Positions 5,855 to 62,411 of a stretch of DNA of 64,000 nt are shown here, in pieces; positions within the stretch are counted from its first letter, which is position 1; the number at the start of each line of letters is the position of its first letter. A program made the position numbers and the translations under genes. The stretch comes from Dehalococcoidales bacterium (GTDB lineage: Bacteria > Chloroflexota > Dehalococcoidia > Dehalococcoidales > UBA5760): the NCBI GenBank assembly GCA_028716225.1, contig JAQUQE010000002.1, forward strand, positions 1-64,000, given 5' to 3'. The notes below the pieces were generated by a model. That model worked only from the letters and a program-made list of their open reading frames with translations. It was not told the DNA's origin and made no database searches.

Positions 5855-8150
5855 TTTGCTTGCTCTCCTCTTCATCCAAGAATTCATCCCAGGGATCTTT
5901 GTCTTTGACTGATTGGTTGGAATCAACAGAAATAAGGGCAGTATCACCAGCGGTAGATGGTGTTACTGCGTTACCGAGCCTGTTTTTCAAGCTAGAATCG
6001 GTAACATAGGGGATGTTACCGTCTGTTACCGTGTTACAGGCCAGGTCACTCAACACCGGCAGCCCCTCAACATCAGGCATCGGCTCGCCAATAGTAAAGT
6101 CCGCCGGGTATCCTTTCCTCAATTCCCTATTTATAAGCCAGCCTTCTTTGAGGGCCTTCTTTGCCCTGCGGTGGGCTGCCATCTTGCTGATGTTTAGGTA
6201 ATCGGCAAGCATTGTGCCTGTTACTCGACTGCCCTCGGTTCTCGCAACTTCGAGTACCCGTACCGCTTCCACCAACTGCCGAATCGTGGTGGCAGTTCCG
6301 GAGACGGAATAAACATACATCTCGCTCACCAGTTCCCGAACCGTCTCGTAGTCCTCGGGTAAAGCTATCAGGTAACCTCCACCATCAACACTCCGCTTAT
6401 TATGGCGGATAATGGTAACTGCCTTTATCATGGAAAGAAGTCGGGCAAAGTCCCTGAGGACCCTTGGCGCTGAGGCCGATTTCCCCAGCGCTGCCGCCAA
6501 TTCCCGGGCAAAAGGTACCCTTACCCGCCAGGGCACCTTCAACTGTAGATATGCCTGAAACGCTATCAGTCCGCTGTTCAGGGAGCGCGGCCCTTCCGTC
6601 TCAAGCTCTGCCTGTACGTTAAGGGCAGCGCAAATCTGCTCTTTAGAATCACCCAGTTCCAGGGTGAAGAGCCGGGTCATCAATTGATGGCCCAATGGAT
6701 TGGTGCTGGTGGTAATGAGGACGGTGGGTCCGGGTTTGCTTACCTTCTTAACCTTATAGTCACCGGTAACCTTATCACGCACGGTGACTTCATAGTGGAG
6801 GTGTTGGTCCTGCAGTAGATTACGGATGGCGCTGGCGGCGGGATTATCCTCACCAGCGGGAAGGCTGTCAGCCTCCCAGAATACCAGTAGTTTGTGCTCT
6901 AAATCGGCATCGTCGTAGATGATGGTTCTGGGTGAGCCAGCGTCAATAATATGTTGCGCTTCATAGGGAAGTAATTTCTTCGCCATGGACAGGGTGTGGT
7001 TTTTACCGCTTGAGCTGGGCCCGCTCAGTAACAGATGTACCGGCATGGCGCCGTCTCTCATCGCCAGCAGCCGTGATGTCGCTGCCAAATAAGTGATGAT
7101 AGCCGGCTTCAAATCCCCTCCATAGCCTAGCCCCAAGATAGCACCCTTAATGACCTCGAGCGGATCCTCGGCCTCAATTACCGCTTTCGCCCCTTTGTAT
7201 GCCTTATCTAACTGCTCGCTGTCTTTATACTCCTTTAGTATCCGACCTGGCTTCGCTTTTTCCTTTAGCTCATTTAGGAGAGCGAGGATATTACAACTCT
7301 GGATATGGGCTTCGCTGATATCTTTCATTCCCTCGGGAGCCTTTATGAACATGAGATCAGGGACACTTTTCAATACCCTCAATACGAAGTCCTCGGCCTC
7401 AGGCTCCTGCCAGAGGTATACCGCTAATCCATCCAGATACCCTCCCCATTCTGTTCGCCATACCCCTTTCCCGGGTATTCCTAAAGTCGGGATCCCATGA
7501 AACCAACCAGTCCAACAGTCTGATTCACCCTCTACTATCAACACCCAACCGGCTTTCCTAATCTGCTCTAACCGGTTTAACCCATAGGGTATGGGGTGGT
7601 CTCCCTTGCGCCACCTGAAGCGGCTATCACCGGTTAGGGCCAGGCGGAAGCGGATAGCGGCTTCATCGCCGTCTTCGGTGGAATAAGGTATTCTTAGGGC
7701 GGGCTGACCGCGGTATTTAAAATCACTGATACCTAAAAATCTCAAGAACTCTACTGGCAACTTTTTGGCTTCTGAGAGGCTGTTAATGGTAACACCGGTA
7801 ACATCCGGTAACGTAGGGGGTGTTACCGGATGTTGGGTGGTATCCAAAGCTAAATCACCCCTTTGTAACGGGTCGGTAACGCGGTAACACCCCCTACCGA
7901 ATGTAATATCTCCCCTCCCATTATCGGCATAACCAAGAGAGTCATAACCCAACGCACCGCAGATATCCCGATAGCTGTGCCGGCCCCCCTGGCAGGTTAC
8001 CAGGGCCTTATCTCCAGCGTCCTTTAGAGTCAAATGCTCCTCTGGTGTCCTATGGCCCGGAGCTGGACAATTCGCTACCCAGATATCACCACGCTTACAG
8101 GCACCGGTAAGCCTGGAAAGGATATCATCGATACTACGTGGTTGGTTCAT
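5847..8150 (-). CDS. Primase-helicase replication protein
   Basis: A 767-residue multidomain protein. A zinc-finger primase-type motif is formed by C28, H33, C53 and H58. A TOPRIM-like segment follows (residues 190-230) with the VEGESD motif at 206-211. Residues about 360-540 are a P-loop ATPase with Walker A GPSSSGKN at 377-384 and a Walker B-like VFWEAD. The C-terminal part (about 640-700) has a winged helix-turn-helix. The layout is that of replication proteins from phages and integrative plasmids that prime and unwind the element's own origin. Two V-T-rich low-complexity stretches (about residues 88-124 and 700-740) are encoded by clusters of GGTAAC hexamers. The start overlaps the stop of the upstream HTH gene. 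Confidence 0.85.
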   Translation of the reverse strand: MNQPRSIDDILSRLTGACKRGDIWVANCPAPGHRTPEEHLTLKDAGDKALVTCQGGRHSYRDICGALGYDSLGYADNGRGDITFGRGCYRVTDPLQRGDLALDTTQHPVTPPTLPDVTGVTINSLSEAKKLPVEFLRFLGISDFKYRGQPALRIPYSTEDGDEAAIRFRLALTGDSRFRWRKGDHPIPYGLNRLEQIRKAGWVLIVEGESDCWTGWFHGIPTLGIPGKGVWRTEWGGYLDGLAVYLWQEPEAEDFVLRVLKSVPDLMFIKAPEGMKDISEAHIQSCNILALLNELKEKAKPGRILKEYKDSEQLDKAYKGAKAVIEAEDPLEVIKGAILGLGYGGDLKPAIITYLAATSRLLAMRDGAMPVHLLLSGPSSSGKNHTLSMAKKLLPYEAQHIIDAGSPRTIIYDDADLEHKLLVFWEADSLPAGEDNPAASAIRNLLQDQHLHYEVTVRDKVTGDYKVKKVSKPGPTVLITTSTNPLGHQLMTRLFTLELGDSKEQICAALNVQAELETEGPRSLNSGLIAFQAYLQLKVPWRVRVPFARELAAALGKSASAPRVLRDFARLLSMIKAVTIIRHNKRSVDGGGYLIALPEDYETVRELVSEMYVYSVSGTATTIRQLVEAVRVLEVARTEGSRVTGTMLADYLNISKMAAHRRAKKALKEGWLINRELRKGYPADFTIGEPMPDVEGLPVLSDLACNTVTDGNIPYVTDSSLKNRLGNAVTPSTAGDTALISVDSNQSVKDKDPWDEFLDEEESKQSG
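5961..6037. repeat. GGTAAC/GTTACC hexamer cluster at 3' end of primase gene
   Basis: GTTACC or GGTAAC occurs at 5970, 6000, 6015 and 6025, with near-matches TGTTAC at 5961 and 6032. It lies within the coding sequence for the V-T-rich C-terminal tail of the primase-helicase. Confidence 0.6.
7788..7888. repeat. GGTAAC/GTTACC hexamer cluster at 5' part of primase gene
   Basis: GGTAAC starts at 7788, 7797, 7807, 7875 and 7883, with GTTACC at 7822 and a near-match at 7864. The first three are spaced 9-10 bases apart. The cluster encodes the V-T-rich linker after the zinc-finger domain and resembles iterons placed inside a replication gene. Confidence 0.6.
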
Positions 8151-51477: not shown

Positions 51478-53559
51478 CTACGGCAGCCTGGCCTCTAATG
51501 CCTCTACCCTTGCCGTCAACTCTCTTAACGCCGAGATAATCCACCCGATGGTAGCATTCATGCTGATGCCCGGCTGGGGCTGAATCACCGGGGCGGTCCT
51601 CTCCTCCACCCTGAGGATAGAGTCGTTAATCTCCTTAAGCTTTATGTCAAGCTTATGCCTGTCCCCGGCAAAGGAAGGGTCGGCCAGCTTGGCCTGACAC
51701 CTGTGCCCGGCACTACGAAGGTCCTGGAGGCGCGTCAGCCGGGTACTGTGTATGGCGGCCGCCCGGTCCCGGTCATACTGCGTGACCGGCACAATCACCT
51801 CGGAGGGCAGGCTATCCCGCTCAAAGGTCTCGATGATTCTATCCGGGTGCCCCTTGCGCTTCTTTACCGCGGTATGGGTGGTAAGTGCTTTCAGCTTGGC
51901 CAGGGCGTCGGCAACAAAATAGGTGGACGGCGTCCGGTCGACCAGATCGGAGTACTCGATATCATCCCAGTAGTATGAGGCGTTGCCCAGGTCGCAGGAG
52001 GCTGCCGCCGGAATAACGTCAAGGCCGTCCGGATCAAGCTCGAGGTCCCCGACCGCCTCGATAGCACAGCCGCTGTTCATTCGCATACTCTGATTGACCC
52101 TGACCGTGCTGCCGGCGGCGGGATCGAGGTTGACATCGTCGGAAGAGTCCAGGGTAACATCGCCGCCGTCCACGGAGCGCAGAGCAACGCCGCCGACAAC
52201 ACCCTCGAGGTAGCCCCGCAAGGTCACCCCGTCCGACTTATAGACCTCAAGCCTGTCGCCGTAGACACGGAAGGTGACTCCCTCAATCAAGCCCGCGGTA
52301 ACGGTGCCGATGTCGGCCGAGATGGCGGAAAGCTCAGCGACGTCGATATCCCCGGCCTGGATACGCTCGGCATAAAGGTTCTTGACCCCAAGGCGATAGA
52401 AATCGAGGCCGATATCGCTCAAGACCTCGAGGCGCGAGAGCAGCGCCCGTACGCTGAGCCAGCCGCCGAAGGAGAAGTCCATCGTATACTTACCCGGCGA
52501 GTACCACCTGGTCAGCGAGCCGATATTGCCGGCCCGGCAGTCGCTCCCCCGCTCGTCGATAACCCGGACGTAGTCGAACAGCTCGGCGCCGCAATTCAGT
52601 GGTACTTCCGCCTCTCCCTTTTGCGCCTCGAGGCGGAACCGGGCGAGGAGTGCCGCGGCAACAGCCTCCGCCTGGTCGTTGCTGTCAAGACAGGCATATT
52701 TCTGATAGCGCATCTCCCGGAAGGCGTTGATGCTCTCGCTGTCGCCGGCACAGCCGGAGTACTGCGGGCTGTCGCCGGGATGGGACCTGGCGACGACATA
52801 GTTGGGAATAACCAGGCTGCTGCGATGCGCCGCGGAGAAGAAGGCATGCCCGCCGCTCAGAGAGTACTCGTAGTCATAGGTCTCACCGCCGGTGACCGGC
52901 TCGAGGATATGGACTTTACCGTCCCCGCCATAGCGCATCACACAGCGGGTGTAGTCGAGCAGGCGCTTCAAGGCCGATAGGCGGGAGCCGTTCATGTAGA
53001 CCCGGAAGCCGTCCCGGGGACAGTAGCTGCCGATAAGGCTGTCCTCGCTATCGAAGACGACGTCGTACCTGCGGCAGGAACTGAAGCAGGCGAGCATGGT
53101 CACCCCGCTATCGCCCAGAATTTCGCGGATGATATCCCTGACCGTCTTTACGTCGCTATCGGCGGGCAGGTACGCTGCCGAGGCCCGGTCCTCGGCAAGC
53201 ATATCGGGGACGCCGGACATGGCGAGCCGGCAGACCAGCTCGCCACGGGCAGAGCATAGCTCCTGGCCGACCACCCATAACGGAGCGCAGTCAGAGTACT
53301 CATCTCCGGCGGGTGTAACGGCGCCGTAGGCGATAACGGCCTGCCAGCCTTTATAATCGTTGCCGGTAAAGACGCCGCTGCTGTTGTCCAGAACGGCCTC
53401 CGCTTTATGGGTATAGGGATCCTCGGTGTGCTTAATAGAGAGGATGAGGGCCGTCCCCAGGACGACCTCGGCAACGCCGCGGGTGAGGGTAATTCTGACC
53501 AGAGGGCCAACGCTGGCTGACTGCTGTGCTGCCAGAAGGGTCGCCGACAGTGTTCTCAC
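51478..53559 (-). CDS. Phage tail-tip / tail-fibre-like protein
   Basis: A 693-residue protein. Residues 1-360 look like a tail-tip or minor tail domain (RTLSATLLAAQQSASVGPLVRITL...). The middle (about 395-520) is a strand-rich fibre stretch with repeating V-T-L-D-S and A-D-I-G patterns, and CDLGNASYYWDDIEYSDL near 530 resembles the junction before S74-type chaperone domains of tail fibres. The end (SMNATIGWIISALRELTARVEALEARLP) is a trimerising coiled coil. It overlaps the holin-like gene start by 4 bases and ends the cassette. Confidence 0.75.
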   Translation of the reverse strand: MRTLSATLLAAQQSASVGPLVRITLTRGVAEVVLGTALILSIKHTEDPYTHKAEAVLDNSSGVFTGNDYKGWQAVIAYGAVTPAGDEYSDCAPLWVVGQELCSARGELVCRLAMSGVPDMLAEDRASAAYLPADSDVKTVRDIIREILGDSGVTMLACFSSCRRYDVVFDSEDSLIGSYCPRDGFRVYMNGSRLSALKRLLDYTRCVMRYGGDGKVHILEPVTGGETYDYEYSLSGGHAFFSAAHRSSLVIPNYVVARSHPGDSPQYSGCAGDSESINAFREMRYQKYACLDSNDQAEAVAAALLARFRLEAQKGEAEVPLNCGAELFDYVRVIDERGSDCRAGNIGSLTRWYSPGKYTMDFSFGGWLSVRALLSRLEVLSDIGLDFYRLGVKNLYAERIQAGDIDVAELSAISADIGTVTAGLIEGVTFRVYGDRLEVYKSDGVTLRGYLEGVVGGVALRSVDGGDVTLDSSDDVNLDPAAGSTVRVNQSMRMNSGCAIEAVGDLELDPDGLDVIPAAASCDLGNASYYWDDIEYSDLVDRTPSTYFVADALAKLKALTTHTAVKKRKGHPDRIIETFERDSLPSEVIVPVTQYDRDRAAAIHSTRLTRLQDLRSAGHRCQAKLADPSFAGDRHKLDIKLKEINDSILRVEERTAPVIQPQPGISMNATIGWIISALRELTARVEALEARLP

Positions 53560-53780
53560 CGTGATTCACCCGCCGGCATAGAGTTTTTCTCCCGCGATCG
53601 GATATAGCTATAGAAGCTGATATAGGAGAGCGCCGAGACGGTGAGCTCCCTGGGTATGGTCTCCATGGCATTCCCGCCGTCCAGGGTGACCGTCACCACC
53701 AGAACGCCCCAGATGACAATCAGGAAGACGGCGATGAAGGGACGGACGATACTGCGAATAAGTTCTTCTTTTCCTTCCAT
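53556..53780 (-). CDS. Small membrane protein, holin-like
   Basis: A 74-residue protein with one clear membrane helix (PFIAVFLIVIWGVLVVTVTL), a polar PRELT-like link and a second weaker hydrophobic segment (VSALSYISFYSYI) before RSREKNS. Size, charge pattern and position between virion genes resemble phage holins. No lysin gene accompanies it, so release function is unproven. Confidence 0.65.
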   Translation of the reverse strand: MEGKEELIRSIVRPFIAVFLIVIWGVLVVTVTLDGGNAMETIPRELTVSALSYISFYSYIRSREKNSMPAGESR

Positions 53781-53794
53781 ATTATCCTCTCTTT

Positions 53795-54421
53795 CTACGG
53801 GCCGTAGTCAGTGGTATTCGATAGCGGCGGGCAGCCGCCTGTGTAGAGCGAGCGGGTACGCACCCGGTTCCTTCTGCCCAGGCGCCTTAGTTCACGGGAG
53901 AAGAAGCTCAGCCGCTCCCTACCCCAGACACGGTACTCCCGGGGCGTGGCCTGCCCGCCGACATTAACCCGGTTCACGGCGTAGACACCCCAGGCAGTGG
54001 CAGCATAGCCGGCCGCCCCGGCGGAGACCAGGTTTTCGTACCGGGCCGGGATGGTCGAGGTTGCCGCATCCAGGGTATGAAGCTGGCCGTAATAGACACA
54101 GCAGTCGGAGCCGTTCGGGACGACACCGCCCAGCAGCGTGATGGTATCCATCCAGACGACGAAGCAGGGGAAACTCCGGGGGAACGCATCGACCGGATAC
54201 TCGACAACCTCGACCGCTACCCGGTCGCTCAAGCCGGAGATATCAACCTCACGGGAACCGGCGCTGGTGGCAATAACGGCCTTCTGCTCCCTGGGGATGG
54301 CCTCGGAAAGTTCGGCGACGGCGCGGCCGATGTGACGGGTCAGTTCGTCATCGCTCCACAGGACACCCGACTCGTCCCGAAGCTCCCGCCTGACCACGGT
54401 TATCATTTCAGACAGGTTCAT
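53795..54421 (-). CDS. Head-tail adaptor-like protein
   Basis: A 208-residue protein. The N-terminus MNLSEMITVVRRELRDESGVLWSDDELTRHIGRAVAELSEAIP is characteristic of phage connector/adaptor proteins of the gp6 type, which sit under the portal. The remainder is strand-rich followed by a helix (PARYENLVSAGAAGYAATAWGVYAVNRV) and a basic end. Function is inferred from this pattern and from its place after the capsid gene. Confidence 0.7.
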   Translation of the reverse strand: MNLSEMITVVRRELRDESGVLWSDDELTRHIGRAVAELSEAIPREQKAVIATSAGSREVDISGLSDRVAVEVVEYPVDAFPRSFPCFVVWMDTITLLGGVVPNGSDCCVYYGQLHTLDAATSTIPARYENLVSAGAAGYAATAWGVYAVNRVNVGGQATPREYRVWGRERLSFFSRELRRLGRRNRVRTRSLYTGGCPPLSNTTDYGP

Positions 54422-54434
54422 TAAGCTACCTCAC

Positions 54435-55040
54435 TTAATCCAGACTGGCCAGCCGGGCAAACACCGCCGGCGAAGCGTCCGCTGCATCTATGCCGCCGGC
54501 CGGAAACGGATCGGGCAGGACGCCGTATCCGAAACCGGTTTTGTATACCATATGGTATCGATACGACAAATCACTCTCCCTCACCCCCAGAGGACTGGGG
54601 GCGTTATAGGTGTGTATCATCTCGGGAGTGCCGTCGCAGACGAAGGCCATCCAGTAAAGCCCTCTGGCCAGCGCCAGGTCAACATCGACCGCCTTGACAC
54701 CGGTGCTGTCTACGGAAACCTCGCCGGCGTCGAGCAGCAACGCCCCCGGGTAGCAGTTGTTTCCGTTGCGGTATACCCCCAGTCTGGCCCGTTCTCCGGC
54801 CGCTCCGGCCACCTTGACGTTACAGGCCAGGCGATCGATGGTCAGCGGCCGGGCCACAAGTAAAGGACAGGTAGCATAGAGCTTGCCGGCAGCTACTATC
54901 GTGGCCAGAGTGGAGGTGTACTGCCCCCAGTAGTTGAGGTAGTTTCCCGTCTTCAGCACCTCAAGCGTATTCATAGTATGAGCATCCAGGTCGGCGGCGT
55001 GCCCGGCAAGCCGGGTGCTTACATTCGATAGAAACCCCAT
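54435..55040 (-). CDS. Virion-associated protein, fibre/carbohydrate-binding-like
   Basis: A 201-residue protein with no clear family. After a short helical start it is strand-rich (LTIDRLACNVKVAGAAGERARLGVYRN...GALLLDAGEVSVD...LARGLYWMAFVCDG), a jelly-roll-like pattern seen in phage fibre or capsid decoration proteins. It is 2 bases from the 103-residue gene upstream and 13 from the adaptor downstream. Confidence 0.6.
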   Translation of the reverse strand: MGFLSNVSTRLAGHAADLDAHTMNTLEVLKTGNYLNYWGQYTSTLATIVAAGKLYATCPLLVARPLTIDRLACNVKVAGAAGERARLGVYRNGNNCYPGALLLDAGEVSVDSTGVKAVDVDLALARGLYWMAFVCDGTPEMIHTYNAPSPLGVRESDLSYRYHMVYKTGFGYGVLPDPFPAGGIDAADASPAVFARLASLD

Positions 55041-55042
55041 CG

Positions 55043-55354
55043 CTAGTCCTCCACTCCGATGATATGCACCGTACCGTTCTGTCCGGCGGTCTTGTTCCTG
55101 AAATAGAGGGTGCTGACATCGACCTTAGTGAAGCCCATCCACTCGCCGGCAGCCAGCGTAAAGGCCTGACCGGCGGCATCGCCGAAGAGCTGGTCGTTAT
55201 CCTCCACCCGAACAATGATGTCACGGAGCTTCTTGGTCTCCGCGGTAAAGCGGCGGGCGTCATCATTTACCGCGGTATCGCAGCCAAGGTAAACTCTGCC
55301 GCTGTAGCCCGACTTGGGTCTTCCCGATTCATCAAATGGCTGATGGCTCACCAT
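55043..55354 (-). CDS. Small virion-cassette protein
   Basis: A 103-residue strand-rich protein (KKLRDIIVRVEDNDQLFGDAAGQAFTLAAGEWMGFTKVDVSTLYFRNKTAGQNGTVHIIGVED). Size and position after the capsid gene fit a head-decoration or fibre-like protein. No family recognised. A double-hairpin repeat lies directly upstream. Confidence 0.6.
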   Translation of the reverse strand: MVSHQPFDESGRPKSGYSGRVYLGCDTAVNDDARRFTAETKKLRDIIVRVEDNDQLFGDAAGQAFTLAAGEWMGFTKVDVSTLYFRNKTAGQNGTVHIIGVED

Positions 55355-55368
55355 AGTTTCTCCTTTCT

Positions 55369-55444
55369 ACCTCACCCCCTTTATCCCCCTCTCCTTCAAA
55401 GGAGAGGGGGAGGAGGTTTTTTTAAGAAGGGGTTGCACCCCTTC
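55369..55444. repeat. Double-hairpin dispersed repeat, copy 1
   Basis: Hairpin 1 is a 12-bp stem (55385-55396 with 55399-55410) on a 2-base loop; hairpin 2 is a 7-bp stem (55426-55432 with 55438-55444). A T7 run at 55417-55423 lies between them. The element matches a second copy at 62424-62502 nearly base for base outside the linker. Confidence 0.75.
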
Positions 55445-55465
55445 CTGCTATCCTGATACTGCACA

Positions 55466-55577
55466 GGCAGTAATTTCACTATTAAACAGACTGTTCGAGA
55501 ATAATCCCCCCATTAAGTCAAGCTTTTCTAACTACCTCCAAGCGGCACGGGCAGTAATTTCTTAAACAGACCGTTCG
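55466..55577. repeat. Imperfect direct repeat pair downstream of capsid gene
   Basis: Copy A (55466-55497) and copy B (55550-55577) share GGCAGTAATTTC and TTAAACAGAC then C/T-GTTCG; copy B lacks four bases in the middle. They are 84 bases apart between the capsid gene and the next gene. Confidence 0.65.
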
Positions 55578-55582
55578 CTTTT

Positions 55583-56503
55583 TTAGTTCTGCACCCCGAT
55601 CAGGGCAGCCGCCTTGACCGAAGAAAACAGCGCCAGGGAACAGTACCACTTGATGCGGGTACGGGAGGCGTCCTTGGTCTCCAGGGCCCCGACCGGCTCC
55701 ACGGTGAGGTGCCCCGGGGCGGTCAACCCGCAGAGAGCGCCCTCACCCAGGGCAACGGCATAGATGGTAGAGTTCACCCCGCCGGTGGTAGCGGTCTCCA
55801 GGCTCGCCGACACGGTATGGGTATCGAGCACCCAGTCGCTGACGCCGATAGGGATGCCGTTATACCAGTCCAGCATCATACCGAACTCGTTGCGGTCGCT
55901 CTCCAGGTTGAAGCCGGCGGCGCGGGTAAGCTGCTTGATTTTGCGCCGGGAGCGCCGGCTCATTAAGAGCAGGTCCGGCTTGCCGCCCTTGACGGCATCG
56001 ATGAGCTCATCGATTTTGGTCAGGGTAAGAGTCGCCCCGGTCGCCCCCATGGCAATGACCTGCGCCGAAGCGCCGGCGGTATCGACCAGTTTCCGGATGC
56101 CGTCGAACTGCTTGGGACTGCTGCCGCTGTCGCCGTAGATAAAGGTCTCCTCGAACTTGTGCCGGAGCGCCTTCGCCTTGAGCTCAATGACGGCCGCCTC
56201 CAGGTCCTGAATGTTGCTGCGGGTCGCCTTCAGGAAGTTATCGACATCGGCGTCGCCGCCCATAATCTTGAGGGTAGCAGTAAGCTGGTTGAAAGTAGGC
56301 GTGCTCTCTGCCCAGGTATCGCCGACATCATAGAAGTCTATGGTGGGCAGGGCATTCTCCTGGTTGTAGGTCAGCCCGTTGCCGACGATTTCGATGAAGG
56401 GAAGCCGCTGCAGGACAGGCGAGTCCTTGACAATGGTCTCGACCACACCCTGGAGCAGGATATCGTTGGAAAGCTTGGCTGCTTCAGCTAAAGACAGGCT
56501 CAT
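55583..56503 (-). CDS. Major capsid protein, HK97-like
   Basis: A 306-residue protein with the pattern of HK97-fold capsids: helical N-terminus (LAEAAKLSNDILLQGVVETIVKDSPVLQRLPFIEI), E-loop-like strand pair, the long spine helix (RSNIQDLEAAVIELKAKALRHKFEETFIYGD), P-domain segment (LLLMSRRSRRKIKQLTRAAGF) and a final strand region (ASRTRIKWYCSLALFSSVKAAAL). It overlaps the scaffold gene by 4 bases, the standard phage order. No protease gene is present. Confidence 0.85.
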   Translation of the reverse strand: MSLSLAEAAKLSNDILLQGVVETIVKDSPVLQRLPFIEIVGNGLTYNQENALPTIDFYDVGDTWAESTPTFNQLTATLKIMGGDADVDNFLKATRSNIQDLEAAVIELKAKALRHKFEETFIYGDSGSSPKQFDGIRKLVDTAGASAQVIAMGATGATLTLTKIDELIDAVKGGKPDLLLMSRRSRRKIKQLTRAAGFNLESDRNEFGMMLDWYNGIPIGVSDWVLDTHTVSASLETATTGGVNSTIYAVALGEGALCGLTAPGHLTVEPVGALETKDASRTRIKWYCSLALFSSVKAAALIGVQN

Positions 56504-56910
56504 TTACCGTTACCTCCTATGGCGTGTTTGATTTTCTCAATGGGGGAAAGAGAGGACAGGTCGGGATGCGTCCGGGGCGGAGCTCCGGCCGGCACCCTGG
56601 CCCCGGCGTACTCCGTCTCCAGGGATTTCCGCACCGATGCGATAATTCCCCGCGCCCTCTCCAGCGAGGCATCGACCTCATCCACCGTCTCACCGCTGAT
56701 AAGCTCGGGGGTCAAGCCCGGGTTGGCCCGGACCACCATTCCCTTGTAAGCGGTAACCGCCCGGGCCAGGCTGGCACCCAGCGCGGCAGCAGTCTCACCG
56801 AGAGTCTGAATCTCGCTATTCTTTGCGGCAAGCTCACCCTTAAGCTGCTCCGTCTCTCCGCTCACCGTCTCGTCCTCCTTCTCTATGGTATTAGTTCCGT
56901 TCTCATCCAT
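56500..56910 (-). CDS. Capsid scaffolding-like protein
   Basis: A 136-residue acidic, helical protein (TETEQLKGELAAKNSEIQTLGETAAALGASL reads as a coiled coil) with a C-terminal SPIEKIKHAIGGNGK. Placement between portal and capsid and 4-base overlap with the capsid gene identify it as the likely scaffold for shell assembly. Confidence 0.7.
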   Translation of the reverse strand: MDENGTNTIEKEDETVSGETEQLKGELAAKNSEIQTLGETAAALGASLARAVTAYKGMVVRANPGLTPELISGETVDEVDASLERARGIIASVRKSLETEYAGARVPAGAPPRTHPDLSSLSPIEKIKHAIGGNGK

Positions 56911-56930
56911 CTGGTAGCTCCTTCGTCCTA

Positions 56931-58322
56931 TTATTCCTTAAGCGCTTCTTCCGCCGGGAATTCCAGAGCCCTCTCTCTCGCTCCGCCCCGGTAAAAGCGT
57001 GCGTTAAGCTCCCGGTTCATCTTCAGTATCGTCTCCCGCTCGGCAAGCCAGCGGCCCAGCTCCGCCTCGGGGTCCCGGATGCCGAGGTTGTCCATGGCAC
57101 AGCGGCGGGAGTGTATTCCGGTCTGTACCAGTATCTGCTCGCTGGCCACCTGGCGCTGGGTATCCTGGGGCAGCACCGGCCCCCAGACGATGCGTGGCGA
57201 GACATCACCGAAGCTCCTGCCGCCGAACCGCTCCAGCAGCCTGAGCGCCATGTCGCCACGCCGCTTGTAAACGGCGCTGCGGATAACCCGCTTGCGCTTC
57301 ACCTTCTGCAGTAAGGGATGAAGCTCGATCTCCAGGGCAACTCCGGACAGGTCCCGCTCCACACCGCCGAAGGATGCCCGCGGCGACTCAGCGATATCGT
57401 GCAGGCTGCGGTAGAGGAGCTCGATATACTCCAGGTGCATCCGGACGCCGCCGCCCTGGAGCAGGTCCAGAAGGTATGCCTTGGCGTCCTCGGGGATATT
57501 CCAGACGGCGCCGGGCTTAACCGCAATATCTTCACTCTCCTCGACATTCTCCAGAACGGCGATCGGGTTGCCGGAGAGTTCCAGTATCCGGGAGAGCTGG
57601 CTCATCGCCCGGTTCAGCTCCCGCTGGCTCTCCCGGACATTGGGGATATCGGAGACGCCCCAGAACCGCTTCGGCTCCCTCAAGTTGGGGTAGAGAATAA
57701 AGGGGATGAAGCCGTAGGGATTGGGCTTCCGTTCCACGATTTCGTTATCCAGCCACAGCTCGAAACCGGGCACGGTCCAGACCTCGCAGATAACCACCGT
57801 CTTACCCCTGGGAGTAACGCTATGGAGCAGCGCCGCCTCCTCAGCGGTAAGGGTATACTTCGAGGCGACCCGCCACAGCCTTGAGACGTCGTCGCCGGGC
57901 CACCAGGCGTAGATACCCTGGACATCCGGTGAGGTAATACGCACCCGCCTGTCGGCGGCGTCCCAGATAACCTTATAGCAGGCATCACCCAGGACGGCGC
58001 AGTCGATCTCGGTATCGAAGTCGAGCTGCTCCAGGTTATTATCCTCATAGACCCGGTAGAGGGCATCTTCGGCGGCACGGGCATTCGCCGCCGCATCATC
58101 GCCATCCCCCAGCGGGTCGACGGCGAAGCTGATGCCGCTCATCAGGTAGCTGGTCACCTTATCGATCAGGGTCTTAACGTAGTTGAAGGTGAGCCGCTTC
58201 TCACCCCTCACCGCCCGGCCCTCCCAGTGCTTGCCGTGATAGAAATCGAGCAGCTCCGCATAGCCCTTGAGACGGTCCCGATCCATGCGGGTAATACGGG
58301 CGGGCAGCGTCGCTTCATTCAT
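56931..58322 (-). CDS. Phage portal protein
   Basis: A 463-residue portal of SPP1 gp6-like type: LKGYAELLDFYHGKHWEGRAVRGEKRLTFNYVKTLIDKVTSYLMSG, then the wing region, GFIPFILYPNLREPKRFWGVSDIPNVRESQRELNRAMSQLSRIL, and the stem helix region ending KRKRVIRSAVYKRRGDMAL. Portals form the twelve-fold DNA gate of phage heads. It overlaps the HTH gene by 8 bases. Confidence 0.88.
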   Translation of the reverse strand: MNEATLPARITRMDRDRLKGYAELLDFYHGKHWEGRAVRGEKRLTFNYVKTLIDKVTSYLMSGISFAVDPLGDGDDAAANARAAEDALYRVYEDNNLEQLDFDTEIDCAVLGDACYKVIWDAADRRVRITSPDVQGIYAWWPGDDVSRLWRVASKYTLTAEEAALLHSVTPRGKTVVICEVWTVPGFELWLDNEIVERKPNPYGFIPFILYPNLREPKRFWGVSDIPNVRESQRELNRAMSQLSRILELSGNPIAVLENVEESEDIAVKPGAVWNIPEDAKAYLLDLLQGGGVRMHLEYIELLYRSLHDIAESPRASFGGVERDLSGVALEIELHPLLQKVKRKRVIRSAVYKRRGDMALRLLERFGGRSFGDVSPRIVWGPVLPQDTQRQVASEQILVQTGIHSRRCAMDNLGIRDPEAELGRWLAERETILKMNRELNARFYRGGARERALEFPAEEALKE

Positions 58323-58638
58323 TCCGTCCCGCCCTCCTTAGCACTCTCTGTACCGTCCTCCGGCTTACGGCAAAGGTAGCCGCCAGTTCCGCCACTCCGT
58401 GATTCCCGGCAGCAAACAGCCGCAGGATTTCCCTGTCCCGCAGCTTCCGGGTAAAACACTGCCTTCCCCCCGGTTCGTCATAGAGGCAACGGTCGAACGG
58501 GCAGCTCAGACAGGAAGGAGCCAGATCGCAGCCGTCGTCGTGATAGCGGCAGTACTCCGGGGGCAAGTCCGGCTCAGCGGCAACAGCCTGAGGGGCGCCG
58601 CTGTTATCAGTAACGCAGTCTTTCTCTTCCGGCGGCAT
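58315..58638 (-). CDS. Cys-rich helix-turn-helix protein at head of virion cassette
   Basis: About 107 residues from the ATG at 58638, after GGGAGG; longer starts would overlap the predicted promoter. Residues about 28-62 hold many cysteines (CRYHDDGCDLAPSCLSCPFDRC), a possible metal or Fe-S site. The C-terminus (DREILRLFAAGNHGVAELAATFAVSRRTVQRVLRRAG) is a helix-turn-helix. It could be a metal- or redox-sensing regulator of the cassette, or stand where a small terminase usually is. Confidence 0.7.
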   Translation of the reverse strand: MPPEEKDCVTDNSGAPQAVAAEPDLPPEYCRYHDDGCDLAPSCLSCPFDRCLYDEPGGRQCFTRKLRDREILRLFAAGNHGVAELAATFAVSRRTVQRVLRRAGRNE

Positions 58639-58679
58639 CACCAATCGTTTCCTCCCTATCAAATATTCAGGGTGACGCC

Positions 58680-58709
58680 AGAATAGCACATTTGTTCTAT
58701 TACCGTCAA
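58680..58709 (-). promoter_or_regulatory. Promoter of the virion cassette
   Basis: On the minus strand TTGACG (58704-58709) and TATTCT (58680-58685) are 18 bases apart. Transcription would begin near 58672 and read the whole cassette leftward. Confidence 0.7.
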
Positions 58710-58737
58710 TATCCTGCTGTCGCCGGAAATTTTCTAC

Positions 58738-58766
58738 TTGACAAACACAACCTTACTGATTATTAT
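58738..58766 (+). promoter_or_regulatory. Promoter of the rightward HTH gene
   Basis: A consensus TTGACA (58738-58743) and TATTAT (58761-58766) are separated by exactly 17 bases, about 30 bases before the start at 58796. It lies back-to-back with the cassette promoter, with 28 bases between the two -35 boxes. Confidence 0.8.
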
Positions 58767-58795: not shown

Positions 58796-58999
58796 ATGAC
58801 ACTCCTGGAAAACTATTTTAACGTGATAGAGGCAGGCCGTCGCCTCAGCATTCACCCGGAGACGGTAAAGCGGCTCTGCCGTCAGGGAGACCTGCCGGCG
58901 GCCAAGCTGCACAACACCTGGCTGATCAAGCGGGATATCCTGGACAACTTCGCCGCCACCTACAGCCCCAGGCGCGGCGCCAGGAAAAGGCTGCTATAA
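58796..58999 (+). CDS. Excisionase-family HTH regulator
   Basis: A 67-residue HTH_17 protein: YFNVIEAGRRLSIHPETVKRLCRQGDLPAAKLHNTWLIKRDILDNFAATY then a basic RRGARKRLL tail. AGGAGGAC precedes the ATG. Its strong promoter faces away from the virion cassette promoter, a layout typical of a phage switch. With no integrase nearby it is more likely a transcription regulator than an excisionase. Confidence 0.8.
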   Translation: MTLLENYFNVIEAGRRLSIHPETVKRLCRQGDLPAAKLHNTWLIKRDILDNFAATYSPRRGARKRLL

Positions 59000-59035
59000 T
59001 ATTCAAGGAACAGTAACAGAGGGAGGGCTTTGCCG

Positions 59036-60577
59036 ATGAGTAAGATGAAAATAATAGGTAACATAGCTATCACTGCTATCATGCTGTCCGCGGCGGCGGC
59101 GCTGATACCGGCTGCACCGGCTCTGGCCCTGCCCGACATCACCCTTTCTCCGTCATCCGGCTCGATCGGCACCGAGGTTACCATCACCGGGACGGACTTT
59201 GCCTCCTTCAAGAATAACGAGCTGACCATACTGTTCGATAACAGTGAAATCGACGCCAGCCCCCTGACCGTTCCGGAAAGCGGCAACTTCACCGCCACCT
59301 TCACCGTTCCCGATGACGCCGAAGCGGGCACCGCCTACGTCAAGGTACAGATGCCTCTCGGCGGCGAGATAGTAAAATCATTTCTGGTCAAGGGGGCGGA
59401 AATCGGTCTGGACAGTGAAGAGGGTGCCGTGGGCACGGTGGTCACTGTGGAGGGACAGGGATTTTACGCCGGTGGCGAGTTGGACATCTACTACTACAGT
59501 AAGAGCAGCAAGGTCAACATTGCCACCGGGACGGCGAACGGTGACGGGGAGTTCAGTCTCGCCATCACCATTCCGGAGAGTACCGCCGGCGAGCATAAGA
59601 TTACCGCCGAGGATACCCTGGGCAAATCGGCGGAAGCCCCCTTCGAGGTACTCCCCTCGATTACCCTGAGCGCATACTTGGGGGCGGCCAACGACAGCAT
59701 CACCGTCGCCGGCAGCGGCTTCGCCGGCGAGAGCGATATCACCATCCAGTTCGGAGGAGCTCAGGCGGCCGAGGACATCACCGACAAATACGGGAGGTTC
59801 CAGACCGCCATCACCATACCGGCCATTGGATCGGGAAGCTACGTGATACAGGTCAAGGACAGCAAGGAAAACTGGAGCAAGGCTGCCTTTACCATAGCCG
59901 CCGGAGTCAAGCTGAACCAGTCCAGCGGCGCGGTCGGTACGCCGCTCATCGTCAGTGGCGCCGGATTCAACGCCGCGGTACTGATTACCATCACCTATGA
60001 TAATACCGAGGTAGCCACCGCGGTCTCCGACAGCGGCGGCACCTTCTCGGCCACCTTTAACGCTCCGCCCAGCAGCGGCGGCAACCACCTGATCACCGCT
60101 AGCGACGGCAGCAACACGGCGGAGTGCGTTTTCACCATGGAATCGACGGCACCGCCGGTACCGGTGCTGCTTTTGCCCGAAGAGGGCAGCAAGTCCGAGG
60201 CGATGACCGGCTTCGACTGGGAGGAGGTCACCGACCCCAGCGGCGTAATCTACAGCTTACAGGTCGCCACCAGCGAGGGCTTCACGCCATCATCAATCGT
60301 GCTGGAGAAGGACGGGCTTGCCGAATCCAGGTACACCCTCAGCGAACAGGAAGAGCTTTCGCCGAGCACTAAAGAAGCGCCCCACTACTGGCGGGTGAAG
60401 GCCACCGACGGTGCCGCTAACAGCAGCGAGTGGTCGGAGGCGGGGTCGTTCTACGTCAGCTCTTCCTTCACGATGCCGGCCGGTGCGAAGAACGCCCTGA
60501 TCGGAATCGGCATCGCGGCGGCCGTCTTTTTCGGCTTCTGGCTGGGCAGGAGGACCGCCTACAAGCGCCGGGCGTGA
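59036..60577 (+). CDS. Secreted Ig/IPT-repeat surface protein, paralogue 1
   Basis: About 513 residues from the ATG at 59036 (GAGGGAGG upstream). A signal peptide ending APALALPD is followed by about four repeats of the form ITLSPSSGSIGTEVTITGTDF...FTATFTVPDD...GTAYV, IPT/TIG-like Ig domains, then a fibronectin-like domain (YSLQVATSEGFTPSS...APHYWRVKATDGAANSSEWSEAGSFYV). A C-terminal helix (NALIGIGIAAAVFFGFWLG) and RRTAYKRRA tail anchor it. Probably an S-layer-like or adhesive envelope protein. Confidence 0.85.
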   Translation: MSKMKIIGNIAITAIMLSAAAALIPAAPALALPDITLSPSSGSIGTEVTITGTDFASFKNNELTILFDNSEIDASPLTVPESGNFTATFTVPDDAEAGTAYVKVQMPLGGEIVKSFLVKGAEIGLDSEEGAVGTVVTVEGQGFYAGGELDIYYYSKSSKVNIATGTANGDGEFSLAITIPESTAGEHKITAEDTLGKSAEAPFEVLPSITLSAYLGAANDSITVAGSGFAGESDITIQFGGAQAAEDITDKYGRFQTAITIPAIGSGSYVIQVKDSKENWSKAAFTIAAGVKLNQSSGAVGTPLIVSGAGFNAAVLITITYDNTEVATAVSDSGGTFSATFNAPPSSGGNHLITASDGSNTAECVFTMESTAPPVPVLLLPEEGSKSEAMTGFDWEEVTDPSGVIYSLQVATSEGFTPSSIVLEKDGLAESRYTLSEQEELSPSTKEAPHYWRVKATDGAANSSEWSEAGSFYVSSSFTMPAGAKNALIGIGIAAAVFFGFWLGRRTAYKRRA

Positions 60578-60734: not shown

Positions 60735-62411
60735 GTGAAGCGCAGTAAATTTTTTCGGATTCTGACGACAGCAGGCATAATGGCGCTGCTGGCCGTAGTC
60801 ATACCGGCCAGCCCGGCCCTGGCGGCGACGAGAACAATCGAACTGGACCCCGAGGAGGGACAAATCGGCGACGATATCGATGTCGATGGCACCGGCTGGC
60901 CGGTATCTATACCAGCCACTTCCACTGAACCAAAGATTGAAAACTGGGTGGACGTATACTTTACCTCCGAGGAGGTTTCCACTAATGACTACCTCGACGA
61001 CGATATCACAAACTATGAGCTGGTCAAACCAGATGTCCTAACCGACTCCGACGGTGAGTTCAGCAGTAGTTTCGAGGTGCCCAGCGAGCTCACCGACGGT
61101 GACGATGACGAAGCTGTCGTCGGCGGCACCTACTATGTCTTCGCTACCTATGCCAATGCTGACCAAGCCAAGGCAGTCGTCGAGTTCACTGTAATCGCAG
61201 GGACGATTGTCCTCGACCCTGATGACGGGGTGGTCGGCACCGAGGTAGATATCGAAGGCGAGGACTTCGCCGAAAATGAAGAGATTACGATATACTACGA
61301 CGGCAACGAGCTGGCCAGCGACTACATCGTGGAGATCGATGATGAGACCGACAACCGAGGCAGGTTAAGCGCCACCATCATCATCCCGCCCAGCACGGCC
61401 GGCGAGCACACCATTACGGTTACCGACGAATCGATCTCCGAAGCCGAGGCCGAGTTCACCGTCGACCCGTCGCTGGAGGTCAGCCCGCTTCACGCCCCTC
61501 CCGGTGGTACCACCGAGGTGATCGGTACCGGATTTGCCGGCAATAAAGACGTCGACATCTTCATCGGCGACGACGAGGTGGCCACCAAGAAAACGGACAA
61601 GTACGGCAGCTTCAGCACTACGGTCAACGTCCCCGAGCTGGATGAAGGGGACTATAATATCGAGGCGGACGACGGCAGCAACGCCGTCGAGATGGACTTC
61701 ACCATCGACATCGGTACCGAGGTCACCATCAACCCGGTAACCAGCCAGGCGGCACCGGGCTACGTCGGTCAGAGCATCACCATGACCGGCAGCGGCTTTG
61801 ACGCCAACATGGCGATAACCATCAGCTTGGCCAGTACGCCGCAGGTAGTTGCCACCACCACCAGCGATGCCAGCGGCAACTTTACCGCCGTTTTCAACAT
61901 CCCGCCCAGCCAGTTCGGAGCGCACACGCTGACCGCCAGCGACGGCAGCAACACTATGTCGCTACCCTTCTACATCGAGCAGACCAAACCATCGATACCG
62001 GCCCCCATGCTGCCCGAGGACGGCGGCAAGGCAGCGGCACGCGCCTCTTTTGACTGGGGCGATGTTACCGACCAGAGTTCGCCGGTGACCTACTCCCTTC
62101 AGGTCGCCAGCGACGAAGCCTTCAGCGCAATTGTAATCGAGGTGAGCGGGCTTACCGCTTCCGAGTACACCCTGCCGGAAGGGACCGAGCTGCCCAAGAC
62201 CAACGAGGGCTCCCCCTACTACTGGCGGGTCAGGGCCACCGACGCCGCCTCCAACGTCGGCGACTGGTCGGCACCGGACTCCTTCCACGTCGGCGGATTT
62301 TCCTTCCCCGGCGGAGGCAGCTGGCTGATACACCTGTGGTGGGGGCTAGGTGCCACCGGCGCCGGTTTCCTGGGCTACTACCTGGGTAAGCGGAGGGCCT
62401 ACTACTACTAA
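60735..62411 (+). CDS. Secreted Ig/IPT-repeat surface protein, paralogue 2
   Basis: A 558-residue paralogue of the upstream protein. A GTG start follows GGAGG. The signal peptide ends SPALAATRT. Domains: an acidic first domain (ELDPEEGQIGDDIDVDGTGWP), three IPT-like repeats (IVLDPDDGVVGTEVDIEGEDFAENEEITIYYDGNEL; LEVSPLHAPPGGTTEVIGTGF; INPVTSQAAPGYVGQ), a fibronectin-like domain and the anchor with LGKRRAYYY at the very end. Very acidic, so calcium binding is plausible but unproven. Confidence 0.87.
   Translation: MKRSKFFRILTTAGIMALLAVVIPASPALAATRTIELDPEEGQIGDDIDVDGTGWPVSIPATSTEPKIENWVDVYFTSEEVSTNDYLDDDITNYELVKPDVLTDSDGEFSSSFEVPSELTDGDDDEAVVGGTYYVFATYANADQAKAVVEFTVIAGTIVLDPDDGVVGTEVDIEGEDFAENEEITIYYDGNELASDYIVEIDDETDNRGRLSATIIIPPSTAGEHTITVTDESISEAEAEFTVDPSLEVSPLHAPPGGTTEVIGTGFAGNKDVDIFIGDDEVATKKTDKYGSFSTTVNVPELDEGDYNIEADDGSNAVEMDFTIDIGTEVTINPVTSQAAPGYVGQSITMTGSGFDANMAITISLASTPQVVATTTSDASGNFTAVFNIPPSQFGAHTLTASDGSNTMSLPFYIEQTKPSIPAPMLPEDGGKAAARASFDWGDVTDQSSPVTYSLQVASDEAFSAIVIEVSGLTASEYTLPEGTELPKTNEGSPYYWRVRATDAASNVGDWSAPDSFHVGGFSFPGGGSWLIHLWWGLGATGAGFLGYYLGKRRAYYY

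Follow-up and report, generated by a model that had tools for sequence, protein, structure and literature searches.

The window analysed here (the whole 64,000-nucleotide stretch at the start of contig C2, JAQUQE010000002.1, of a Dehalococcoidales bacterium) carries a virion cassette of nine genes, g1 to g9, on the minus strand at 51478-58689. Together with two terminase genes past the window end, the cassette makes up a locus (C2:51478-67293) that we consider as a candidate gene transfer agent (GTA). All nine reading frames are intact, each with a single terminal stop, which confirms an earlier sequence-only reading of this DNA. That reading had the genes joined by overlaps of 4 to 8 bases; this holds for three of the eight junctions (8 bp at g1/g2, 4 bp at g3/g4 and at g8/g9), the others being gaps of 2-20 bp apart from one of 228 bp between g4 and g5.

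Most of the gene identities it gave also stand. Profile matches identify g2 (56931..58322, 463 aa) as an SPP1-type portal (PF05133, 1.9e-21; phrog_64, 2.5e-35), g4 (55583..56503, 306 aa) as an HK97-type major capsid protein (phrog_212, 3e-68; PF17236, 6e-10), whose sole match in a PDB sequence search was 8cjz (6e-4), and g7 (53795..54421, 208 aa) as a head-tail adaptor of the SU10 type (PF24175, 1e-8). The product of g9 (51478..53559, 693 aa) combines a tail hub of the gp27/gp44/VgrG fold (residues ~1-365) with a fibre-like C-terminus: an AlphaFold model from 25 sequences gave mostly fair to high confidence for residues 1-365, and Foldseek matched the modelled hub part to Mu gp44, T4 gp27, VgrG, and the hubs of extracellular contractile injection systems (best E 3.5e-19). 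Matches are weak for g1 (58315..58689, 124 aa), a Cys-rich helix-turn-helix (HTH) protein with 4 conserved Cys seen in the alignment (HTH_23, 8.5e-5; phrog_836 late transcriptional activator, 5.2e-5), which is a candidate activator and the marker of the resident form described below. They are weak too for g3 (56500..56910, 136 aa), which is scaffold-like by position and by a phrog_1793 scaffold match (0.008) and is conserved in relatives. The g6 product (54435..55040, 201 aa) is a variable virion- or tail-associated protein (phrog_25864, 5.5e-9; phrog_21562 tail, 2.4e-7), its position being occupied in relatives by LamG-like or GSG-repeat proteins. Profile searches gave no significant match for g5 (55043..55354, 103 aa), a small protein with a 57% homologue in L069, or for g8 (53556..53780, 74 aa), a small membrane protein with weak homologues in relatives; the earlier holin call for g8 is thus one of position only, without profile backing. 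The gap after the capsid gene (55355-55582) contains a strong hairpin (CCCTCTCCTTTGAAGGAGAGGG), and the relative L145 has a cement-like gene there. The locus gave no lysin, integrase or replication gene, as reported before, and neither a tRNA nor an att-like repeat of more than 13 bp.

The sequence-only reading saw no large terminase and concluded that the cassette could not package DNA by itself. The first statement is correct inside the window and fails for the locus: intact genes for a large terminase subunit (TerL; C2:65528-66928, 466 aa) and a small one (TerS; C2:66940-67293, 117 aa; phrog_1889, 5e-9) follow on C2, again on the minus strand like the cassette, at 1.5-3.3 kb past the window end. 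The conclusion has lost its basis, as have the proposals of an empty protein shell and of a satellite using a helper's terminase. A tape measure, which the same reading had named together with a terminase as something that might lie just outside, was not found. The best matches of TerL (76-80% identity) are the TerL proteins beside the same cassette in relatives; it reaches phrog_5909 (1.1e-6), and 18 of the 22 members of its family match Terminase_6C, for which its own match falls below the Pfam cut-off. A PDB sequence search gave no match for TerL. The model of a 79%-identical relative, in which the nuclease half alone was confidently modelled, resembles large terminases (G20c nuclease, E 1.1e-9, target TM 0.75; HK97; Sf6), and the 18 best matches in the structure search were all terminases. 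In the family alignment the putative nuclease Asp residues are invariant, as is a pair of acidic residues that would fit Walker B (the motif assignment is our own). The linked TerL was missed by a PF03354 search of the assembly, which returned just two TerL genes, on C24 and C68, unrelated to it. This assembly (G000) also holds unrelated phage fragments, with the TerL genes of C24 and C68 (L054, L055) accompanied by PF04860 portals and C51 (L056) carrying a GP7-type capsid with a head-tail connector. In relatives the cassette is often preceded by proteins of 455-500 aa and ~118 aa, with opposite-strand IPT/TIG surface genes between; the search for the same gene order in other Dehalococcoidia that had been proposed earlier thus finds terminase, IPT/TIG block and cassette recurring in that order.

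The family is widespread in the class. Among 244 Dehalococcoidia genomes, each at least 85% complete, 121 have the portal, 151 have TerL and 115 have the capsid, mostly one copy of each, and 98 genomes have all three (reading frames were called greedily and clusters are single-linkage). TerL of the cassette type accompanies the portal in 114 of the 119 portal genomes with listed positions. Of 61 genomes of the window's own order, 27 have the capsid, with 66-85% identity for the cassette form; G009 has a more distant phage capsid (~37%). Single metagenome-assembled genomes (MAGs) may be contaminated; the same locus nonetheless recurs in many families. Matches beyond the class are sporadic and more distantly related, a phylum sample of 251 adding 16 Chloroflexota genomes. 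Nearly all named records come from MAGs assigned to Dehalococcoidia, Dehalococcoidales or Chloroflexi; two bear the label Deltaproteobacteria. One distant portal copy each was seen in G390, G432 and G439 (genus g264, Chloroflexota outside the class), which may represent a separate resident lineage.

The genes also descend largely with their hosts. Compared with RpoB, the portal gives a Mantel r of 0.651 (n=46; 0 of 2000 permutations) and shares 15 of 43 splits against 0.22 at random, one of these being exactly the window's order; the capsid gives 0.697 (n=30; 13 of 27 splits) and TerL 0.526 (n=42; 17 of 39). Quartet agreement with RpoB (28-30 taxa) is 0.865 for the portal, 0.795 for the capsid and 0.668 for TerL. 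For comparison, reference genes of the alphaproteobacterial GTAs were picked at a quartet agreement above 0.8, against a many-marker tree (PMC10883770). The ratio of nonsynonymous to synonymous substitution (dN/dS) against L145 is 0.07 for the capsid, 0.13 for the portal and 0.22-0.30 for g7, g3 and g1, and it is 0.07-0.12 for TerL pairs; capsid frames are intact in most genomes. The genes are hence intact and under purifying selection, although active phages would look alike. Values below 1 are what the sequence-only reading had asked to see, and simple decay, against which it had argued, is ruled out by dN/dS of 0.07-0.30 and intact frames. Part of the flank is conserved as well. In nine IPT-form loci the sequence extends 1.2 kb or more upstream, and seven of these have a CT398/zinc-ribbon gene there, as does the window genome.

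What speaks most strongly for domestication is that the genes are dispersed yet intact. Where all three genes are present (98 genomes), portal and capsid lie within 6 kb of each other in 37 and are separated by 6-119 kb of a single contig in 16; the other 45 have the two on separate contigs, a figure inflated by short contigs. Three single-contig genomes from other orders (G103, G183, G209) have intact genes with portal and capsid 112-119 kb apart and capsid and TerL 3.4 kb apart; at that distance portal and capsid are therefore not packageable as one phage genome.

The resident form is marked by a g1-type Cys-HTH gene placed between TerL and portal; it was seen in 34 loci, none of which has an integrase within the stretches examined. 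Where g1 is missing from that place (15 loci), 7 have an integrase and in 13 TerL overlaps the portal start by 8-47 bases. The placement of g1 splits loci without integrase from loci partly with one, and a resident chromosomal form thus coexists with related temperate phages. The Dehalococcoidia temperate phages in question (L139, L157 and L167 from IMG/VR, L147 from one MAG) share TerL, portal and capsid at ~60-79% identity, but in them TerL directly overlaps the portal, without g1 or the IPT block, and integrase, RepO or Pol-beta-thumb genes are present. L139, L157 and L167, in stretches of 13-18 kb, carry a tyrosine integrase, and some have RepO, HNH or Pol-beta-thumb genes; L157 has both Phage_rep_O and a Pol-beta thumb gene. 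Six relatives have serine-recombinase elements inside the capsid gene, all at the same codon (about residue 47, ...GNGLTYNQ): L083:12015-13559, L086:8427-10115, L111:3222-4058, L113:12078-13658, L126:11881-13002 and L211:2385-3965. The remainder of the capsid resumes ~8 kb further on in L113 and L211. Such elements seem to use the capsid gene of the resident form as a dedicated target for integration.

Between cassette and terminase lies a divergent block of surface genes on the plus strand. It starts with a small HTH_17 protein (58796..58999; PF12728, 6e-10), homologues of which (up to 87% identity) adjoin the cassette in relatives, and continues with three IPT/TIG-domain surface protein genes (59030-60577, 60735-62411 and 62599-64002; PF01833), the last passing the window end by 2 bases. 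IPT genes cluster around the cassette in 40 genome loci, and we can only guess that the block serves as a receptor or surface layer. A HicB-like gene and an HTH_17-response-regulator fusion (C2:64176-65225; L225:6177-6518, 6678-7226) lie between the surface genes and TerL.

Here, we propose that C2:51478-67293 is probably a copy of an anciently domesticated GTA-like element (a viriform) of the class Dehalococcoidia, packaging mostly host DNA. Among the possibilities raised by the sequence-only reading, a GTA-like system is the best supported, by intact genes with a linked terminase, purifying selection, class-wide and mostly single-copy retention, host-congruent trees and dispersed genes. As in recognised GTAs, particle genes of caudoviricete origin (portal, capsid, adaptor, hub) are joined by TerL and TerS. 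The family as a whole is host-chromosomal and vertically inherited, with phage exchange in the window's portal, and it lacks the means of self-propagation, there being no integrase in the 34 resident loci and virion genes scattered in many genomes. The fuller proposal, to which we give close to an even chance, is of a working GTA whose domestication was an independent event in an ancestor of much of the Dehalococcoidia; its tail would be a minimal one of adaptor and hub, and its virion genes would later have dispersed over the chromosome.

If so, how might the element work? We suggest that g1 would turn on late expression in a subset of cells, whereupon TerS and TerL would load DNA via the portal into scaffold-built capsids. 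This DNA would have to be mostly the host's: in the resident element neither integrase nor replication genes are visible, and the virion genes often lie scattered. The adaptor and the gp27-type hub may form a very short tail, and variable fibre, LamG-type or repeat proteins may bind recipient surfaces for delivery. Particles would leave by cell rupture, for which a lysin may be unneeded because cultured Dehalococcoides have no peptidoglycan.

Several observations weigh against the GTA proposal. Particle, packaged DNA and transfer are here predictions from genes, and neither a tail tube nor a tape measure was found in the locus. About half of the 244 genomes of the class have no cassette, related integrase-bearing phages exist, TerL follows RpoB less closely than the other genes do, and the host tree is built on that one marker. 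The window copy itself has its portal grouping with the phages L147, L157 and L167; forcing it together with same-genus portals is rejected by the approximately unbiased (AU) test (p 0.0009), which rules out purely vertical descent of this portal, while the whole order as one portal clade is not rejected (p 0.08). Over 414 aa its g9 shares 54% identity with that of phage L147, against only ~25% with those of other residents, and the window locus showed no counterpart of the 70-aa protein located after g9 in relatives. With phage affinities in both portal and g9, the window copy is not purely vertical; it is mosaic, most simply read as a product of recombination with related phages.

These facts can also be taken to mean that the module is exchanged among temperate Dehalococcoidia phages, the window copy being a recently stranded prophage without integrase and replication genes. 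The same TerL-portal-capsid module does occur in phages that carry integrase and RepO, and L147 is close to the window in portal and g9. Two genomes of genus "g9" in family f9 (G016, G135) retain partial portal and TerL with the capsid absent; this genus is probably Dehalococcoides, with apparent decay of the cassette, and the family probably Dehalococcoidaceae. We nevertheless hold a prophage or remnant to be rather unlikely, given a mostly single copy in about half of the class, host-congruent trees, a conserved flank, dispersed yet intact genes, dN/dS of 0.07-0.30 and no integrase in any of the 34 resident loci.

A domesticated particle might instead have a role that is not DNA transfer, for example as a headed bacteriocin or a shell that delivers protein, with the terminase kept for assembly or another use of packaged DNA. 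In favour are the hub fold, which VgrG and contractile injection systems share, the variable genes for LamG-like and fibre proteins next to the capsid, and the lack of a tail tube and tape measure in the locus. Such a role appears quite improbable, however, since TerL is kept in nearly all carriers with dN/dS of 0.07-0.12 and invariant nuclease residues, as expected where DNA is packaged and cut, and profile search found no toxin domain in the window cassette. The linked TerL and TerS set aside a DNA-less shell, and likewise a satellite with its own capsid and a helper phage's terminase, which we regard as highly improbable: its support is gone, even if the assembly does hold unrelated TerL genes on other contigs, and the portal-TerL pairing in 114 of 119 portal genomes speaks against it. 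A helper-dependent satellite would lack its own terminase and carry its own integrase, and the locus, with neither integrase nor replication module found in it or integrase in its 34 resident-form relatives, shows the reverse on both counts.

How does the element compare with known systems? The RcGTA-like GTAs of Alphaproteobacteria (Rhodogtaviriformidae) likewise encode their virion on the chromosome, with genes for TerL, portal and an HK97-type capsid, are not self-propagating, and have been retained in a broad group of hosts whose phylogeny their trees match (PMC9662315; PMC10883770). In contrast, the element described here belongs to a different phylum, has an SPP1-type portal, an SU10-type adaptor and a TerL barely reached by Pfam, places a Cys-HTH protein between TerL and portal, and has no tail tube or tape measure that we could find. 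With respect to homology with the Rhodo-, Barto- and Brachygtaviriformidae, its TerL and capsid were placed by profile matches, to phrog_5909 and phrog_212. With SU10-type podoviruses and SPP1-type portal phages it shares the SU10_MCP and SU10_adaptor domains and the SPP1/phrog_64 portal, but identity to named phages is at most ~39% for the capsid and ~25% for the portal, and it has a gp27-type hub in g9. Such a hub is not usual for a podovirus.

Recognised GTA families are few, with three given in PMC9662315, where Chloroflexi go unmentioned. In the open-access literature (subscription papers and most bioRxiv preprints lay outside our scope), we found no report of GTAs or conserved prophages in Dehalococcoidia, Chloroflexi/Chloroflexota, SAR202 or Dehalogenimonas. 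If true, a class-wide GTA in Dehalococcoidia would be a separate domestication. Short "provirus" fragments in IMG/VR would then be read differently, because many of those sampled look like pieces of the resident locus. Single-contig genomes of the probable Dehalococcoidaceae are among the carriers, so that the element would be testable in culture. It would provide a route of gene exchange in hard-to-culture bacteria, carrying host DNA between uncultured bacteria of sediment and subsurface, and perhaps between organohalide respirers.

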